Shown piece after piece: positions 5,047 to 14,556 of a DNA stretch of 25,833 bases (positions within the stretch are counted from its first letter, which is position 1; every line of letters starts with the position of its first letter). The notes under the pieces are model-generated. The model saw only the letters and a list, made by a program, of their open reading frames with translations. It was not told the DNA's origin and searched no databases. The stretch comes from a virus, in IMG/VR virus record IMGVR_UViG_3300035664_000075, positions 1-25,833 of that record, one strand, 5' to 3'. The position numbers were made by a program, and so were the translations under genes.

Positions 5047-5202
5047 ATGGCATCAAAAACACTTGCCCAACATAAGTTAATGCTCGCAGCAGCTAATAAT
5101 AAAGCCTTTGCTAAGAAAGCGGGCATTCCAATGTCTGTGGCAAAAGATTTTGTAGCGGCAGATAAGAAGGCTGGTAAGTTTAAAGCTAAAAAGAAGAAGT
5201 AA
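5047..5202 (+). CDS. Small basic phage protein (51 aa)
   Basis: ATG at 5047 is preceded by AGGT with 8 nt spacing; the frame closes with TAA at 5200-5202. The product is highly basic: a helical MASKTLAQHKLMLAAANN start, a central KKAGIPMSVAKDFVAADKK and a lysine-only tail (KFKAKKKK). Short Lys-rich proteins of this style (AAANN.AFAKK.GIP..VAK.F.AADK) occur at the end of structural operons in other phages, but I know of no established function; nucleic-acid or virion association is a guess from charge. It is the last gene before the convergent terminator. Confidence 0.75.
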   Translation: MASKTLAQHKLMLAAANNKAFAKKAGIPMSVAKDFVAADKKAGKFKAKKKK

Positions 5203-5204
5203 AG

Positions 5205-5230
5205 ATAATGCCCCGAAAGGGGCATTATTT
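5205..5230. terminator. Bidirectional rho-independent terminator between convergent operons
   Basis: A perfect 10-bp stem (ATAATGCCCC / GGGGCATTAT) closes a GAAA loop. On the + strand the stem is followed by TTATTAA; read on the - strand it is followed by CTTT. It sits 2 nt after the + strand stop at 5202 and 1 nt past the lysozyme stop at 5232-5234, so it can end both operons. Confidence 0.9.
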
Positions 5231-5231
5231 A

Positions 5232-5708
5232 TTAAGCTATATGACCACTTTTAAGGATACTCGCTAAATCAATAGCACGTCCATAAACTTGTCTTGCCCA
5301 TTTTGATTTAAGCATCTCTTGTGATGCTTGTGTGAAGCGTCTATTCTCAATTAACTTAATTGTCTTTGTGAATTTACCTAATCCACCCAGACCCATGTTA
5401 TACCCCATATCCAGCATCACATACTGTGACGTAACAGGTAATTGAGAATACCAACTATATGTCTCATGTAATTGTGCATCCAGTTGATTGCACATTTCAC
5501 TCACAAAGAATTCCGCCTTTTCTTTTGACACACCTTGGCGATGAATAATCTTAATTTGTCTCGGTGATAATTCCAAAGGATTCTTTGTTAAGTTATAACC
5601 ATATCCCACAGAGATATCGCCATTTCTATCATGATACGGCATCTTGCGATAACCTTCATGCTCACTTGTACCAATAACACACAAACTTAATACTGCTGCG
5701 GTAATCAT
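5232..5708 (-). CDS. T4-type lysozyme (GH24), hydrophobic N-terminus, lysozyme 1
   Basis: Endolysin that should cleave the MurNAc-GlcNAc bond of peptidoglycan. The E-X8-D-X5-T layout of the family appears as E18 (SEHEGYR), D27 (YHDRNGD) and S33 (DISVGYGYN), so Ser replaces the usual Thr. The rest follows the fold: QYVMLDMGYNMGLGGLGKF and a C-terminal KSKWARQVYGRAIDLASIL. Residues 1-14 (MITAAVLSLCVIGT) are hydrophobic with small residues and a Cys just before the catalytic Glu, as in signal-arrest-release endolysins, but the stretch is short, so host Sec export is uncertain. GGAGAGA lies 5 nt before the ATG, and an in-frame stop upstream prevents a longer start. It is last in the leftward block and is a co-linear paralogue of the lysozyme at 8454-8921. 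Confidence 0.88.
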   Translation of the reverse strand: MITAAVLSLCVIGTSEHEGYRKMPYHDRNGDISVGYGYNLTKNPLELSPRQIKIIHRQGVSKEKAEFFVSEMCNQLDAQLHETYSWYSQLPVTSQYVMLDMGYNMGLGGLGKFTKTIKLIENRRFTQASQEMLKSKWARQVYGRAIDLASILKSGHIA

Positions 5709-5792
5709 AAGAGTCTCTCCATTCTTATTTTGTTTTTCATAACATCATTTCCAAACTAAGGAAGATGCAGTTTATCATCCGTTTATTAAATT

Positions 5793-7952
5793 TTACTTAA
5801 ATCCAACATCTCTCAATATTTCATAGCACTTGGTGATATACCAATCATAATCTAAGTCAATAGGTATCTCCTTTGTTAATCGCATCATGGGTCTGCACTT
5901 CTCAGACATCGGCACAGTGTGACCCGTCTTAGCATAAATAAGAGCCGTATTAGTCGCTGTACTGTGATAAAAGCGTACAACCTTACCTAAGTATTCCGTA
6001 TCTTTTACTGCGCCACCATCGACCTTACAGAGCGTTAGAAACGCATTCATTCTAGTGCATCCTCTCACTGTGTCTTCAATAAATGTTCCGTTCTTTAAAA
6101 ACTCGGCAACAGCTTCCGAGCAAATCATATTAGATGTATTTTTATCAATCTCAAGCTCAGATGGTTTTGTGTAATAGGAATAAGCACCTTTACGTTTAAT
6201 CTCACCATTGGTTTTAATGGCAAAATAATTATTCACATCACGACTGTGGATAGATTGATAATGGGCATATTCCATATTGAATCCAGTATCATGCATCCAC
6301 TGTGAAATGATATCCGTCACAAGCTCGCTATTGCGTGGTGACCTAATTACCACACCATCTGTGTTAGCCGATACACATTGCACACCTGCTAAGTGTAATC
6401 GCTCAATAAGCATTAAAAGGGATAATTGACCTGTCACTGTCACAGCAACTAAGAGCTTTGGCGCAAACAAAATACTATACTCTGAGCCAAACTTACCAAA
6501 TGACCCATTGAGCAAAATCTTATAACACGCATCAATAATTTTATCTTTTACTTTCTTAGCCTGAACACGTTTATCTAATGCGCCTTTATATACTTTTAAG
6601 AATATATTACCCAGTTGCTCTGGGTATAACTGAAGTAACATAATGATTGATGGATAATAAGAGGTCACATCCGCATCAATAAGCTCGAAATCATCATCCG
6701 AAAAGTGAGATATTGATTTCTCAGTTGAATGCAAACCACCTGAGCCAAGCTGATACCCAACACCATCAATAATAATCATTGTGTTTTTAAGAAGCTCTGA
6801 GCGCATCTTACCGCCCACAAATTCAAATCGCTCAGTCTTTAAGTCTTGTAATACTTTTTGAAGTTCTGGTGTTTTAAACTCAATAAACTTAGGTGCGCTA
6901 TAAGTGATAATTGCATTCTCATCAACTTTACCTTTATAGATTTCACGACCTAAGAAACCTTCAACTTCTTTCTTGATAATGGCTTCAGCCATCTGTGCAT
7001 CAGATTTTGAGCGAATGTCTAGTTTATTCTGTTTACCCACACTATCTCTAAGTTGTATTTGTGGGTAAAGAAAGTTATAAAGATAGGCTGTTGCTTCACA
7101 GTCATTAAGACAATACCTACGCACAATAGTCATTTGGTCATAATTTAAATCAATACCTGCTTTGAATGGGAGGTCTTGAATATTTGGGCAATTAAGTCTT
7201 GCAGCATATTGCTTTAATGATGCCTTACCTTTTGATACCTCAATCAAATCAATGTGGTCTAAATCAAGTTGCTTAACCTTGAAATGTTTTAAGACTTGAT
7301 AGGGTCTTGATTCCTCCAAAATAAGCATCTCAGTGGCTCGCCATAGCTCGGAAAAACTTTTCCCATGCAATGCCATTGCTAAGATAACAGAGTCGAATTT
7401 GATGCCATTAAAGCTAATTAAGGTATGGTTGTTCACAAACCATGTGAGTAAAGGAATATCTAATTCGTAATCATCATACTTTTCAAAGTAATAGCATTTA
7501 CCCGTGCGATATCCAACAAAGAATATTAGGAAGTAATTACCATAAATCTCAATATCGAACACAAGTTCTTCATCAAAAGGCTGATTGAATGATGCCCACA
7601 GGTTATATTGATATGACTGTGAATCCTCTAAGTTAGGAAGATAGTCTGGTTCTTCCCATGTGCGTGAAGGAATAATAGCTTGTTGCTTTTGTTTCTTTGG
7701 TCGTATCTCGGTTTCACCACCAAATAAATCAAAATGAAATTTAATATTTTCTTGAACACCAAAATACCGTTCAATCTTTGTATTGACATCATCTTCAAAT
7801 ACATTACAAATCAATCGGTATTCTGATTCTGTGATTTTAACAAGCACATCATCTTCTGATGCCAAATCATTTTCATATAGCAATTCTAAAATATTATCAT
7901 GTGACCAGTCACAATAATGCGCTAAATCAAATGAGCTAATATACTTAGCCAT
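5793..7952 (-). CDS. Family B DNA polymerase with 3'-5' exonuclease (719 aa)
   Basis: Likely the phage replicative polymerase. The exonuclease domain shows ExoI FDIE (D133, E135), ExoII FNGIKFD (N182, D187) and ExoIII YCLND (Y280, D284). The polymerase domain has motif A DVTSYYPS (D428), motif B KILLNGSFG (K478, N482, G486) and motif C SANTDGVVI (N530, T531, D532). Family B normally has DTD in motif C; here the first Asp is Asn, which may be a trait of this phage subfamily. The first ~125 residues are an acidic extension I do not recognise. Length fits compact phage B-type enzymes. GGAGAG lies 5 nt before the ATG. A terminator lies directly upstream (7979-8015), so the gene probably needs read-through or the nested promoter noted there. 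Confidence 0.92.
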   Translation of the reverse strand: MAKYISSFDLAHYCDWSHDNILELLYENDLASEDDVLVKITESEYRLICNVFEDDVNTKIERYFGVQENIKFHFDLFGGETEIRPKKQKQQAIIPSRTWEEPDYLPNLEDSQSYQYNLWASFNQPFDEELVFDIEIYGNYFLIFFVGYRTGKCYYFEKYDDYELDIPLLTWFVNNHTLISFNGIKFDSVILAMALHGKSFSELWRATEMLILEESRPYQVLKHFKVKQLDLDHIDLIEVSKGKASLKQYAARLNCPNIQDLPFKAGIDLNYDQMTIVRRYCLNDCEATAYLYNFLYPQIQLRDSVGKQNKLDIRSKSDAQMAEAIIKKEVEGFLGREIYKGKVDENAIITYSAPKFIEFKTPELQKVLQDLKTERFEFVGGKMRSELLKNTMIIIDGVGYQLGSGGLHSTEKSISHFSDDDFELIDADVTSYYPSIIMLLQLYPEQLGNIFLKVYKGALDKRVQAKKVKDKIIDACYKILLNGSFGKFGSEYSILFAPKLLVAVTVTGQLSLLMLIERLHLAGVQCVSANTDGVVIRSPRNSELVTDIISQWMHDTGFNMEYAHYQSIHSRDVNNYFAIKTNGEIKRKGAYSYYTKPSELEIDKNTSNMICSEAVAEFLKNGTFIEDTVRGCTRMNAFLTLCKVDGGAVKDTEYLGKVVRFYHSTATNTALIYAKTGHTVPMSEKCRPMMRLTKEIPIDLDYDWYITKCYEILRDVGFK

Positions 7953-7978
7953 TCATCTCTCCATAAATTTTAAGCAAT

Positions 7979-8015
7979 AAAAAACCTTGAATTGATTTTA
8001 TAACAAGTCAAGGTT
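7979..8015 (-). terminator. Rho-independent terminator upstream of the polymerase gene
   Basis: Reading leftward, AACCTTGA (8015-8008) pairs with TCAAGGTT (7990-7983) across a 17-nt loop, and the transcript then runs into a T-rich tract (7984-7979). It begins 14 nt after the stop of the holin-like gene, so it can separate the lysis pair from polB. The stem is only 8 bp and AT-containing, so termination may be partial. Confidence 0.65.
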
Positions 8016-8024
8016 CTCTGTAAA
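7997..8024 (-). promoter_or_regulatory. Candidate leftward promoter nested in the terminator
   Basis: TTTACA (8024-8019; 5/6 of the -35 consensus), a 16-nt spacer and TATAAA (8002-7997; 5/6 of the -10 consensus). Initiation would fall near 7990, inside the 3' arm of the terminator stem, so transcripts from this promoter could not form the hairpin and would read into polB. It rests on consensus matching in AT-rich DNA. Confidence 0.35.
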
Positions 8025-8028
8025 GCAA

Positions 8029-8457
8029 TTATCCGTTTGGATGTATTGTGTTCTGTATAAACCAAAAAAGAATTGCACCCATCGCAGTGGCAATTGCGCT
8101 ACCTGCCCAATAGATTAATTTCTCTAATGCAATTATTTTTTTTTCTAAAAAACCAGTATGCACCATCTTAAGTTCGGTTTCATTTAGTTTTTGTTCAAGA
8201 TTATCTATTTTAGTACCAAACCGCTCAAAAGTCTTTTTTGTGAGTTCGGAGTTTTCTTGTGAACGTCTATCACGCTCATCTAATTTGAGAACGACTGTAT
8301 TCATACTTAGTGCTATATCAGATAATTGTGTGCATAGCCGTTTCACTGTGTCTTTTATCTCAGTTAAATCTTTTTCGAGATTGTCCACAGTGGACTCCGT
8401 TTGAAGAAGACGAGTCAGTTCAGTGTTCTCTGGTTTGCCTTGCCAGAATTCACTCAT
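8029..8457 (-). CDS. Coiled-coil protein with C-terminal membrane segment, holin-like candidate (142 aa)
   Basis: Residues 20-112 are charged and helical with heptad-like Leu/Ile spacing (VDNLEKDLTEIKDTVKRL; TKIDNLEQKLNETELKM), suggesting a coiled coil. Residues 114-134 (LIYWAGSAIATAMGAILFWFI) form one transmembrane helix followed by a short tail. This layout resembles XhlA-type holin or holin-associated proteins: cytoplasmic coil, then a C-terminal anchor. Its start overlaps the stop of lysozyme 2 by ATGA, the expected setting for a lysis partner. There is no sequence proof that it forms lesions, and a structural membrane anchor or spanin-like role is possible. A terminator follows the gene. 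Confidence 0.72.
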   Translation of the reverse strand: MSEFWQGKPENTELTRLLQTESTVDNLEKDLTEIKDTVKRLCTQLSDIALSMNTVVLKLDERDRRSQENSELTKKTFERFGTKIDNLEQKLNETELKMVHTGFLEKKIIALEKLIYWAGSAIATAMGAILFWFIQNTIHPNG

Positions 8458-8921
8458 CGTATTTTACCTGACTTAAGAATTAATGCTAAATCAATAGCAC
8501 GAGATTTAACTTGTTTTGCCCATTTAGAATCCATCATTTCAATAGATGCTTGAGTTGTTTTGCCTTCTTCAATGAGTTTCAACGTGTGTTTGAATGCAAG
8601 TAATCCTTTAATACCTAAATTAAATGCCATATTAATTAACACATATTGTGTATTATTATCTAATTTGATGAACCAAGGTAATGCTTTGATGAGCTGCTCT
8701 TCAACTTGTGTGCAACAGAGTTTTAATAAATGGTCTGCTTTTTCTTCTGTGATTCCAACCGTTTTAAGTGATTGTAATTCATTGGCAGATAAATGAAGTG
8801 GATTGGCATCTAAATTATAACCATATCCAATGGTGAGTTTTCCTGCTGTGCAGTGATATGTTTTAGCACGAAAACCTTCGTGTTTTTTCAGATTGTCTGC
8901 TTGTATTTGATTAATCGGCAT
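8454..8921 (-). CDS. T4-type lysozyme (GH24), soluble form, lysozyme 2
   Basis: Catalytic layout E15 (KKHEGFR), C24 (TYHCTAG), T30 (KLTIGYGYN): the E-C-T variant of the GH24 triad, also known from the P1 lysozyme type. NTQYVLINMAFNLGIKGL and the C-terminal DSKWAKQVKSRAIDLALIL match lysozyme 1 position by position, so the two are paralogues. There is no signal or membrane segment at the N-terminus, so export would depend on a holin such as the ATGA-coupled gene that follows. The start codon lies 10 nt after an AAGGA. A long perfect inverted repeat (8945-8983) lies in the leader, about 23 nt upstream. Confidence 0.9.
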   Translation of the reverse strand: MPINQIQADNLKKHEGFRAKTYHCTAGKLTIGYGYNLDANPLHLSANELQSLKTVGITEEKADHLLKLCCTQVEEQLIKALPWFIKLDNNTQYVLINMAFNLGIKGLLAFKHTLKLIEEGKTTQASIEMMDSKWAKQVKSRAIDLALILKSGKIR

Positions 8922-8944
8922 TTGAGTACATCCTTATAACTAGA

Positions 8945-8983
8945 AATTCGTGATACGGGCAAGCATACCACATATCACGAATT
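8945..8983. repeat. Perfect 11-bp inverted repeat upstream of lysozyme 2
   Basis: AATTCGTGATA (8945-8955) and TATCACGAATT (8973-8983) are exact reverse complements around a 17-nt spacer. CTAGAA (8940-8945) and TTCTAG (8995-9000) add an outer imperfect match. There is no T-tract after the stem in either direction, so it is not a standard terminator. It could be an RNA hairpin in the lysozyme leader or a palindromic operator. Confidence 0.7.
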
Positions 8984-8996
8984 AAGTCACGGAGTT

Positions 8997-11685: not shown

Positions 11686-12435
11686 TTAATTATGTTCAGA
11701 CAATTTGGTAATCCTATCAATAACATCTTGTTCTGGCATGGTATCACTTTTTAAAATATTTTCCTTTGCCCACAATGGTTGAAAATTACCATAGTGATTT
11801 AATTTAATGATTTCTTCCTCTGTTTTAGCTGATGATATAGGAATAATATGGTCTAAATGCCATTCACCCCTATTATTCCACGTCATTCCATCTTTAAATT
11901 GATTTTCGATATGTTTCATAAAAAAATCAAAATCACATCCAAGTATGCTTTGCGTTTTTGATTTTTTAGAATAACCATTTCGATGAAGTGACATTCGTAT
12001 TAAATTTCGTATTCTATGGGTAATGGCATATATGTGGTCATTCTTTCTTCTATTTAAATAATATTTGTTAATAGTATGTTTATTTTTCTTATTATTTATC
12101 CTTTTTAACTCTCTTATCCTTTCAATATTATTTGACACATATTGTTTTATAATATGCTTATTATTTTTATAATATATCGCTTTTTTTATTTTTATTTCTT
12201 CTTTATGTGATTTGCGATATTCAAATCCATATGCTTTTAATTCTTCTTTGTTATTTAAATAATAGTTTTTTCTATATTCTTTATGTTTTTCAGGTTTTTC
12301 ATAATAGTGTTTTTTACGTTTAATACTGTCACACGGTTTGCAATATGAACCAACCCCATCAGGTGAACAATTCTTTTTATAAAAATCGTCTGTTGATTTC
12401 TCTTTCTTACAACCAATACAAATTTTTGTCACCAT
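11686..12435 (-). CDS. HNH endonuclease with N-terminal zinc finger, homing type (249 aa)
   Basis: An N-terminal zinc site CIGC...YCKPC (C6, C9, C32, C35), a long Lys/Asn/Tyr-rich middle (about 40-150) and a C-terminal HNH module: GEWHLDHIIPIS, then NFQPLWAKENILKSD. The H-L-D-H and following N residues are the catalytic and metal ligands of the family. Phage genes of this form are usually free-standing homing endonucleases that spread into operons. Its DNA is much richer in A+T and Lys/Asn codons than the flanking PhoH and reductase genes, and it is not ATGA-coupled, both consistent with later insertion. ATG at 12435 is preferred to a TTG at 12459 that overlaps the preceding microgene. Confidence 0.87.
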   Translation of the reverse strand: MVTKICIGCKKEKSTDDFYKKNCSPDGVGSYCKPCDSIKRKKHYYEKPEKHKEYRKNYYLNNKEELKAYGFEYRKSHKEEIKIKKAIYYKNNKHIIKQYVSNNIERIRELKRINNKKNKHTINKYYLNRRKNDHIYAITHRIRNLIRMSLHRNGYSKKSKTQSILGCDFDFFMKHIENQFKDGMTWNNRGEWHLDHIIPISSAKTEEEIIKLNHYGNFQPLWAKENILKSDTMPEQDVIDRITKLSEHN

Positions 12436-12439
12436 GATA

Positions 12440-12538
12440 TTACCAACAAGTATTTGCAACTTGATTAATCAGATAAACCACAATTGAAAGCAATATGGTA
12501 ATTGATATATCTTTGTTTTCTTCAATTAATTCTTGCAT
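12440..12538 (-). CDS. Membrane microprotein (32 aa)
   Basis: ATG at 12538 is preceded by GGAAT about 7 nt upstream. The product is a charged MQELIEENKD followed by a single membrane helix, ISITILLSIVVYLINQVA, ending NTCW. It stops 4 nt before the HNH start. A longer in-frame start at 12628 would overlap the end of the reductase gene and span the strong hairpin at 12560-12589, so I reject it. Same design as the other microproteins here (short charged end plus one helix). Unknown function. Confidence 0.6.
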   Translation of the reverse strand: MQELIEENKDISITILLSIVVYLINQVANTCW

Positions 12539-12559
12539 TTTTTTTATTCCAAAATAGAG

Positions 12560-12589
12560 GACATAGTGCGCTATGAAACGCACTATGTC
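12560..12589 (-). repeat. Perfect 11-bp hairpin after the ribonucleotide reductase gene
   Basis: GACATAGTGCG (12589-12579 read leftward) and CGCACTATGTC (12570-12560) pair exactly around an 8-nt loop, 8 nt after the reductase stop. The following CTCTATTTTGG has only a short T-run, so it may be a weak terminator, an RNA 3'-end stabiliser or both. Confidence 0.7.
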
Positions 12590-12597
12590 AAAACAAT

Positions 12598-14556
12598 TTA
12601 TTTTACTGGGCAAACCCCGCCAACACATCCTTCCTGACTTTCAATTTCAGTAAAAGACCCTGTTGTTTCAACTGGTTTCAAATTGGCAACATATTCATTA
12701 TATGCTTCTTTTGTTACAACTTCTTGTGGTAAATATTGATAACCTAAATCAGCGGCTGTTTTTGTTGGGTCAGCACGATATAAAAAACTAACACCAACAT
12801 ATAGATTCCAATTCTTTAAAAGCCAATTAACAATATCTTCTACTTCATCTGGTGAATAACTAATTGTCACAGATGTGTTCTGTTGTGTCCAGTTATTTTG
12901 TAGCAATGCATATCTTTCAAGTTGCGAAATAGCCGATTCAAGATTAACCTCCATACCATTCCAATAATCAAACGGCACATCATCCCATGCAACAGGGAAT
13001 GTCACAATACAACTTGTTGTATCATTTGGATGAGGTATTATTTTATATCCCGCATCACGAAGCAAATTCAAGTTTTCATCATGATTACTAAAAACAACAT
13101 TATTAAAAATATATTTTCCAAGTGGTTTATGAACACCTTCTGTTGTATCCATAATCTTAGATAATGTACCACTTGGTTTAACACAAGTTACATTTTTTGG
13201 TCTTTGTGTTCCAAGCTCATCTGCCATTGAATAAGCCGCTGATGTGGCAATTCGTTGCATTGATTGATAATCATACGCAACCAAATCAGGTCTTCTGGCA
13301 ATACCTGTTAATCCAACGCCACACAGTCTTAAAAACTCATTATTTAAATGCCATGCTTCTTGAAGAATACCATCTTTTAAATTAACTAATGTTTGACGAT
13401 AATTAGCTCTAGCCACAATATATAGTGTTCTATTTAAACCATCTGTGTCACCATGAAATTTACCAATATCAATTTCAGTTAAATTACAGAATGATTTATT
13501 GCCCAATAGAATTTCAACACAAGGATTACATCCAGCAAACCAAGGGGCGCGTTTTTTAGCCACTTCAGCATTAATAAACGCTGGTTCTGAGCCACCCGAT
13601 AACTCCATTAATTCAAAAATTTTTGTAAGTTCTGAATGTGTTGGCTCGGTATGAAATACAAGAGAATTATTGGATTGACATCTATGTGCATTATCATATA
13701 GCCAAAAATCTTTTTTAGCCGTTGCAAATTCTTTTGCTTCATAATCAGTAACGTCCAATATGGCTATTTGTGCTGAACGTCTGCTGCTCAAAACAGTGCC
13801 AAGATGATTCATAATGTCAAGAATATCAATAGCCGATAATAAGTTTCCAGCTCTCTTAGACATTATTTCAACAATTCTTGAATATGCTTTCACAATAGCA
13901 TCATCGCCAGAACTAATCCAACCATAACCGCGCAATCTTTCACCCGCTGGACGCAATTGTGAAAAATCAAGAATCAGTTTATCTGCTAATTGTTTACCAG
14001 CTAATATCTTTCCTATTGATTTTGCCCATGCTTCAGCAGAATCACCAATTATAATTGTCCATGTTTTTGTATCCCTATCAAATGTTTCAACATTATTCTG
14101 ATTTCCTAACTTATCGCTTCTTGTTGACCTAATAATTTCTACGTTAGCAATAGCCTTGCTAAACCCATTTAATGTACCACGAACAGGTTTAAACCCAACG
14201 CCACAGCCTTGTAACAATAACCAAAAGCAATCAACAACATCATACACGGTTTCAACATTTGTGAATGAGCAATTAAATTGTGAACTTTCTCTCTTTTTAG
14301 ATAATTCTGTTCCACCGAGCCACAGACTTCTGCCTGACATTAATGCTTTTCTTTCAAGCATTAATTCACGAAGTTCTGATAATTCATTTAGTTCAGATTT
14401 ATTTAATTTTGAATGCTTTGCTCGTTCCCATAACCATTTTTGATGACCAATAACACGGTCAACTGTTTCATTCCAAGATTCAAAAGAACCGTCTTCTTTT
14501 GGTCTATTATATGTTCTTTTTGTAATAATTTCTGCTCTTGCACTTATTTCATTCAT
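12598..14556 (-). CDS. Adenosylcobalamin-dependent (class II) ribonucleotide reductase, monomeric RTPR-like (652 aa)
   Basis: Makes deoxyribonucleotides from ribonucleotides using coenzyme B12, independent of oxygen. Residues expected from the Lactobacillus enzyme are all visible: C96 (QFNCSFTN) and C357 (KSFCNLTE) as the redox pair, C346 in NPCVEI as the radical cysteine with N344 and E348, and a C-terminal shuttle pair C644/C649 (GCVGGVCPVK). VKPSGTLSKIMDTTEG is the conserved phosphate-binding loop region. It is somewhat shorter than the ~740-residue Lactobacillus protein. The start overlaps the stop of the 59-aa gene upstream (ATGA). A second gene with a class II-type C-terminal domain lies at 25444-25833. 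Confidence 0.93.
   Translation of the reverse strand: MNEISARAEIITKRTYNRPKEDGSFESWNETVDRVIGHQKWLWERAKHSKLNKSELNELSELRELMLERKALMSGRSLWLGGTELSKKRESSQFNCSFTNVETVYDVVDCFWLLLQGCGVGFKPVRGTLNGFSKAIANVEIIRSTRSDKLGNQNNVETFDRDTKTWTIIIGDSAEAWAKSIGKILAGKQLADKLILDFSQLRPAGERLRGYGWISSGDDAIVKAYSRIVEIMSKRAGNLLSAIDILDIMNHLGTVLSSRRSAQIAILDVTDYEAKEFATAKKDFWLYDNAHRCQSNNSLVFHTEPTHSELTKIFELMELSGGSEPAFINAEVAKKRAPWFAGCNPCVEILLGNKSFCNLTEIDIGKFHGDTDGLNRTLYIVARANYRQTLVNLKDGILQEAWHLNNEFLRLCGVGLTGIARRPDLVAYDYQSMQRIATSAAYSMADELGTQRPKNVTCVKPSGTLSKIMDTTEGVHKPLGKYIFNNVVFSNHDENLNLLRDAGYKIIPHPNDTTSCIVTFPVAWDDVPFDYWNGMEVNLESAISQLERYALLQNNWTQQNTSVTISYSPDEVEDIVNWLLKNWNLYVGVSFLYRADPTKTAADLGYQYLPQEVVTKEAYNEYVANLKPVETTGSFTEIESQEGCVGGVCPVK

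Follow-up and report, generated by a model that had tools for sequence, protein, structure and literature searches.

The window analysed here is the whole stretch of 25,833 bases from an uncultivated phage, given by positions 1–25,833 of the IMG/VR virus record IMGVR_UViG_3300035664_000075, and our subject is a pair of lysozyme genes that lie on either side of a DNA polymerase gene on its − strand. Read in the direction of transcription, the block consists of lysozyme 2 (lys2; 8454–8921, 155 aa), a gene for a 142-aa protein that has a coiled coil and a single hydrophobic segment near its C-terminus and is a candidate holin or other lysis partner (8029–8457), a 719-aa DNA polymerase (5793–7952) and lysozyme 1 (lys1; 5232–5708, 158 aa). 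A first-pass annotation had described two diverged lysozymes of glycoside hydrolase family 24 (GH24) flanking the polymerase, and both open reading frames (ORFs) were indeed found on the − strand with the polymerase between them. Our analysis confirmed a real, diverged GH24 pair that is conserved in its lineage, in which lys2 is an ordinary member of the family and lys1 has changed fast but is constrained, and carries a rare letter in its catalytic triad.

Homology and structure comparisons confirmed that lys1 and lys2 are T4-type lysozymes of GH24, a well-known enzyme family. Both pass the curated cut-off of 22.3 bits for the Pfam family Phage_lysozyme (PF00959), lys1 with 32.5 and lys2 with 56.1 bits. 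AlphaFold2 models of the two proteins have predicted local distance difference test (pLDDT) scores of 95.5 for lys1 and 93.9 for lys2, and their structure matches, many of which are plain T4 lysozyme entries, reach Z scores of 18.3–19.2 and 19.3–19.6, respectively, among the matches listed (e.g., lys1 with 149l, Z 18.6, 2.0 Å, 146 residues aligned; lys2 with 205l, Z 19.5, 2.1 Å, 143 residues aligned). Compared by Foldseek with predicted structures of viral proteins, the lys1 model had 42 matches at E ≤ 0.001, with no pointer to another function, and nearly all of those bearing names are lysozymes or endolysins. Aligned with each other by BLASTP, the two proteins are identical at 66 of 142 positions (46%, E = 2e-49) without a single gap, residues 16–157 of lys1 matching residues 13–154 of lys2, and the C-terminal motif RAIDLxxILKSGxI that had been reported as common to both copies is present in each. 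The full-length alignment described at first pass thus holds for these 142 residues and excludes the N-termini, because the first 15 residues of lys1 and the first 12 of lys2 do not align.

Searches of IMG/VR with lys1, lys2 and the polymerase recovered 18 contigs of the window lineage. Eight of them span the cassette, and all eight hold both lysozymes in the order lys2, single-transmembrane (single-TM) gene, polymerase, lys1; one of these adds no independent evidence, since its two lysozymes and its polymerase match those of the window at 100% identity. The other ten contigs carry lys1 only (seven) or lys2 only (three), and each ends before the missing gene. Among 12 viral records that were searched whole, none of them known to be complete, two GH24 matches were found in the four lineage records covering both loci, and one match was found in two lineage records, each cut before one locus, as well as in all six records outside the lineage. 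Both copies are under purifying selection, with ratios of nonsynonymous to synonymous substitution (dN/dS) against four relatives of 0.073–0.115 for lys1 and 0.074–0.128 for lys2; the ratio of about 0.1 in each indicates that both are being kept. The corresponding values are 0.025–0.057 for the 142-aa gene and 0.028–0.091 for the polymerase. A recent duplication without divergence, a possibility raised at first pass, was not seen.

The clearest difference between the copies lies at the catalytic positions. Chain alignments place E11, D20 and T26 of T4 lysozyme opposite E18, D27 and S33 of lys1 and opposite E15, C24 and T30 of lys2. An excerpt of PMC8228626 gives the motif Glu-X8-(Asp/Cys)-X5-Thr for all published structures of the family and reports that T4 lysozyme D20C retains activity. 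Lys2 has this motif at the right spacing, and lys1 departs from it at the third position, where Ser33 keeps the spacing and is fixed in all eight distinct lys1 sequences. A survey of the triads in 230 distinct aligned sequences gave E-C-T in 112 (eight of them lys2), E-D-T in 101, E-D-S in ten (eight of them lys1), E-C-S in four, and E-Y-T, E-Q-T and a gapped triad in one each. It samples the nearer relatives, comprising the best 80 of 91 matches from a viral-contig search with lys2 and, from profile-based searches, the best 80 of at least 563 and the best 80 of 441 relatives; the lys1 query for the phage search was residues 2–158. Cys at the second position is ordinary, since E-C-T occurs in 112 of the 230 sequences, and P1 Lyz has the same E-C-T triad as lys2. 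A third-position Ser is rare but recurrent outside lys1 (6/221 distinct aligned sequences), in line with the earlier remark that it is uncommon. One of the six is a Shewanella phage ZP9 protein annotated as an endolysin, and searches of that phage with either lysozyme query found one matching place.

Could lys1 be catalytically dead or weak, and regulate lys2 or protect the cell instead? The rarity of its Ser would fit such a role, as would its family-rare residues, which occupy 35 of 132 columns compared with 21 for lys2. We regard it as scarcely probable, however: lys1 retains Glu, Asp and a hydroxyl residue at the triad positions, keeps 26 of the 32 family positions that are conserved at 80% or more (lys2 keeps 30), and has a dN/dS of about 0.1, and the ZP9 protein has Ser in what is the one lysozyme place found in that phage. 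The suggestion that Ser may lower activity is therefore not supported, a non-catalytic regulator is disfavoured, and lys1 is probably an active second muramidase.

The second difference concerns the N-terminus, which had been described as hydrophobic in lys1 and without a signal in lys2. The first 15 residues of lys1 are free of D, E, K, R, H, N and Q, and the most hydrophobic 13-residue stretch ahead of its catalytic Glu scores 2.39, the second highest among 227 rows with lys1 copies counted (3 of the 230 rows were left out as too short); the sole row above it is a protein with just 12 residues before the Glu. The same measure is −0.8 in lys2, whose longest run free of charged or amide residues is three and which has no export signal. 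Both descriptions are thus borne out. Cys10 of lys1 lies in the hydrophobic helix, and Cys73, a conceivable disulfide partner, in the long central helix.

A hydrophobic segment before the catalytic Glu is also a feature of the signal-anchor-release (SAR) endolysins P1 Lyz and DLP12 RrrD, which raises the alternative that lys1 is a membrane-tethered, SAR-like endolysin that is exported by Sec and gives the phage, in addition to lysis through lys2, a route that is independent of a holin or of the pinholin type. The hydropathy of lys1 is indeed that of a SAR domain (DLP12, 2.26; P1, 2.88), and its uncharged stretch is identical in six of seven full-length distinct lys1 sequences, the seventh having Ala for Thr14. 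In addition, the lysozyme of Rhodobacter phage RcRios is hydrophobic up to its catalytic Glu at position 26, with a run of 18 residues; as this is intermediate between lys1 and the SAR controls, a SAR-like shape for lys1 is not impossible. An excerpt of PMC9239132 states that some SAR domains are missed by TM predictors and that pinholin release is the definitive test for a SAR endolysin. SAR endolysins have a weakly hydrophobic N-terminal TM segment of about 20 residues. In contrast to the controls, the uncharged run of lys1 spans 15 residues (23 in DLP12, 20 in P1), its Glu is found at position 18 with 17 residues before it (position 35 with 34 in DLP12, position 42 with 41 in P1), and its first K or R comes no earlier than residue 21, whereas in both controls the hydrophobic segment is preceded by basic residues. 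Moreover, in the lys1 copy of one relative (L014, 1–447), truncated by the end of its contig, the Thr14 position inside the otherwise uncharged stretch is taken by Lys, and the AlphaFold2 model uses residues 4–18 as helix 1 of the T4 fold. The model favours a soluble enzyme without proving it, because a released SAR lysozyme could fold likewise. Taken together, membrane tethering appears less likely than a soluble enzyme, and we consider the SAR-like alternative unlikely. Of the proposal that lys1 is a tethered or released form, the SAR-like hydropathy stands, and the position of the Glu, the short run, the lack of preceding basic residues and the modelled helix speak against the rest; the two lysis routes that went with it were not borne out.

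How the pair arose was addressed with two trees. Lys1 and lys2 are sisters in a 70-row tree (support 96/95; 70 of 72 rows used, two sequences of less than 130 aa being dropped) and again in a 75-row tree with bacterial genomes included (100/88; the best-scoring 75 of 229 rows, with at most five lys1 and five lys2). The stem of lys1 is nearly five times as long as that of lys2 in both, 1.26 versus 0.27 and 1.64 versus 0.34, respectively. Lys2 is also the best profile match of lys1, with 137 bits compared with 109 for the next, and these results fit a duplication followed by fast change of lys1. The two proteins have the rare residues K64, C73, D147 and L152 in common, of which K64 and C73 are absent from 214 other rows. 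The same very long stem could, however, reflect a xenologue that was acquired from another phage and is no duplicate of lys2. Approximately unbiased (AU) tests did not reject trees in which lys1 was constrained outside the lys2 group (p = 0.445, 0.299 and 0.183), which leaves duplication unproven. Across the full alignment, lys1 is almost as close to one other sequence, L016 (42% identity), as to lys2 (43%), and other rows share as many rare residues with lys1 or more, five in one row and four in two. With the profile scores, the sister placement in both best trees and the K64 and C73 pair on the other side, we view acquisition from another phage as doubtful but a genuine possibility, and in-genome duplication as the better, though not proven, reading of the sequences. 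The phylogeny that had been proposed for both copies thus recovers them as sisters and at the same time allows a separate origin.

Gene conversion between the copies was considered as well, since DNA identity in 20-codon windows is 72–75% at the C-terminal end compared with 42–62% elsewhere. It was rejected: where the two copies have the same residue, their codons do not agree significantly more often in that region (Fisher p = 0.06–0.43 in the eight genomes tested), so that constraint on the protein suffices to account for the similarity. A KSG/KTG change occurs in both copies of some genomes.

The start of the 142-aa gene overlaps the lys2 stop codon by 4 bases. Its product combines a coiled-coil body with one C-terminal hydrophobic segment (KD19 value 1.55 in the orthologue of the related contig G001). 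It has no Pfam family over the cut-off, XhlA being reached only at E = 0.1, and the PHROGs that it matches best (1.3e-4 and 3.2e-4) have no assigned function, a hemolysin PHROG following at 0.043; no holin match stood above noise in Pfam or PHROG, and no homologue was found among annotated phages at E = 0.1. Similar arrangements occur in relatives. In a record with one GH24 match (L033), the related lysozyme gene overlaps a gene for a TM and coiled-coil protein by 4 bases, and in another relative, of which a 6.4 kb stretch was covered (L204), it overlaps a small TM gene by 4 bases. A third relative (L032) encodes a coiled-coil protein with a C-terminal TM segment about 1.5 kb from its lysozyme; this protein matches the holin family phrog_689 weakly (5.1e-5), and its direct comparison with the 142-aa protein gave a non-significant 16.9 bits. 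Judged from gene order and protein features, lys2 and the overlapping single-TM gene are best read as an ordinary lysis cassette, in which a lysis role for the 142-aa protein is likely and its identity as the holin a guess. On the 38 kb contig G001 (L118), two adjacent small proteins with N-terminal TM segments (12463–12711 and 12713–12958) are encoded among the structural genes. They represent a duplicated small gene of one family of unknown function (phrog_18771) with a weak match to a holin family, and could be real holins.

Three hairpins flank these genes. Directly upstream of the lys2 ribosome-binding site lies a strong hairpin (8936–8990, − strand; −26.4 kcal/mol, z −5.4, with 0 of 200 shuffles as good) that may act as a leader, attenuator or operator, and both arms of its 13-pair main stem are unchanged in 11 of 11 loci compared. 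A second hairpin, followed by a T run, is located between the single-TM gene and the polymerase (7979–8019, − strand; z −3.0, 1 of 200 shuffles as good). It is a probable intrinsic terminator of the lys2 unit, and neither arm varies among the 11 loci compared; the terminator scan does not list it because its loop is too long for the scan rule, which allows 3–8. The third, a symmetric hairpin of 10 pairs between lys1 and the convergent + strand gene (5205–5228; z −3.9), is a probable bidirectional terminator; all 12 loci compared have it, and in one of them (L002) a compensating change on both sides turns a G-C pair into A-T. Since many of the compared loci are closely related, this conservation represents few independent events. 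The terminator scan lists 8936–8990 and 5205–5228 as terminator-like, and over the window it found six terminator-like sites versus 2.4 expected; promoter-like sites numbered 16 versus 23.2 in shuffles. Going by structure alone, the hairpins suggest that lys2 and its partner form their own unit, apart from the polymerase and lys1.

The hairpin at 8936–8990 also encloses TGnTATGCT, by eye an extended −10-like sequence, which is kept in both sequence groups compared. An operator role for this palindrome was examined and rejected: no exact copy occurs in the window besides its own two arms, and with one mismatch allowed there are three matches versus 2.2 expected.

The polymerase matches phrog_1252 (E = 2.1e-177) and is of a type named family B in annotated relatives; its nearest counterparts are those of Escherichia phage Seurat and related phages, with 43.8% identity over 89%. 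The window resembles these Seurat-type (Queuovirinae) siphophages in its polymerase type, in the order Sak4, Cas4-domain exonuclease, helicase and polymerase, and in its convergent tail genes. In contrast to the window, PF00959 matched nothing in eight of the nine phage records searched that have this polymerase type, and matched once in the remaining record, so that the lysozymes look like a module added in the window lineage. In another contig (L012, 2210–4367), the polymerase is split into two overlapping ORFs of 343 and 383 aa, owing to a frameshift or a sequencing error. Elsewhere in the window, an endonuclease VII-like gene (11686–12459, − strand; phrog_1035, 3e-24) lies between PhoH and ribonucleotide reductase (phrog_367, 1.3e-168).

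Because lys1 adjoins the tail genes, it might also be a virion-borne lysozyme for entry and no lysis enzyme at all. Among its PHROG matches, a family of internal virion lysozymes (phrog_2083, 3.8e-11) comes second and ranks above the endolysin family phrog_7 (7e-6). That match is confined to the lysozyme domain, however; lys1 is a single domain without a virion-anchoring part, and the tail genes, which converge on the − strand block, are encoded on the other strand, with the symmetric hairpin in between. We therefore hold an entry function to be very unlikely. The + strand gene convergent with lys1 (5047–5202) encodes a 51-aa lysine-rich protein that matches phrog_16759, of unknown function, as well as the N-terminal part of phrog_22033 and of phrog_25121, both of them virion structural families.

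The reading that we favour, with modest conviction, is that lys2 is an ordinary holin-dependent endolysin and lys1 a fast-diverged second active muramidase that is soluble and whose hydrophobic segment is helix 1 of the fold. On this account the lineage would hold a paralogous pair of T4-type GH24 muramidases. Lys2 would be the cytoplasmic lysozyme, which most likely waits there until the holin opens the inner membrane, and would be expressed from a unit bounded by the strong hairpin upstream and the predicted terminator downstream. Lys1, placed after the polymerase and ending at the predicted bidirectional terminator, would have changed fast after the split, acquiring a new hydrophobic helix 1 and differing from lys2 by Asp and Ser in place of Cys and Thr, and would since have been conserved; it, too, would most likely reach the wall once the membrane is opened. 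Several of the observations above weigh against this account, namely the SAR-like hydrophobicity of the lys1 segment, the outcome of the AU tests, the near tie in identity with L016, the rare residues that other rows share with lys1, and the lack of a holin match above noise for the 142-aa protein. A bolder version, in which lys1 is a holin-independent, membrane-inserted E-D-S muramidase that arose when a cytoplasmic E-C-T endolysin was duplicated within one genome, seems to us quite unlikely.

Both copies are similar to T4 lysozyme e in fold (Z 18–19) and in the E-X8-(D/C)-X5 spacing, and lys2 likewise has no export signal; lys1 differs from it by Ser in place of Thr26 and by a longer uncharged helix 1. 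The second GH24 domain of T4 is part of a tail hub protein, and not a second free enzyme. Two wall hydrolases per genome, as in the window, are also found in multi-endolysin phages such as Enterococcus phage PEF1 and mycobacteriophages, and lysin A and lysin B of the latter are different enzymes. Excerpts of the respective reports describe the PEF1 enzymes as two amidases in different branches with low homology (PMC11428236), and lysin A and lysin B as components of mycobacterial lysis cassettes (PMC13056207, PMC3111421). In contrast to these systems, the window pair consists of two close relatives within GH24. In the part of the open-licence literature that was listed, including results on Ser in place of Thr26 and on phages with two endolysins, no diverged GH24 pair like lys1 and lys2 was found.

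If both proteins are plain soluble muramidases, the pair would represent ordinary redundancy in phage lysis. If the bolder version held, the lineage would possess two lysis routes derived from one ancestral enzyme, an idea with low odds, and a signal-anchor-type endolysin would have been caught arising from helix 1 of the fold. In either case, the pair offers a natural comparison of related GH24 enzymes in which helix 1 and two of the three triad residues have diverged while both proteins are strongly constrained. It thereby makes testable whether Ser can stand in for the catalytic Thr in GH24, and whether a hydrophobic helix 1 may start to act as a membrane anchor.

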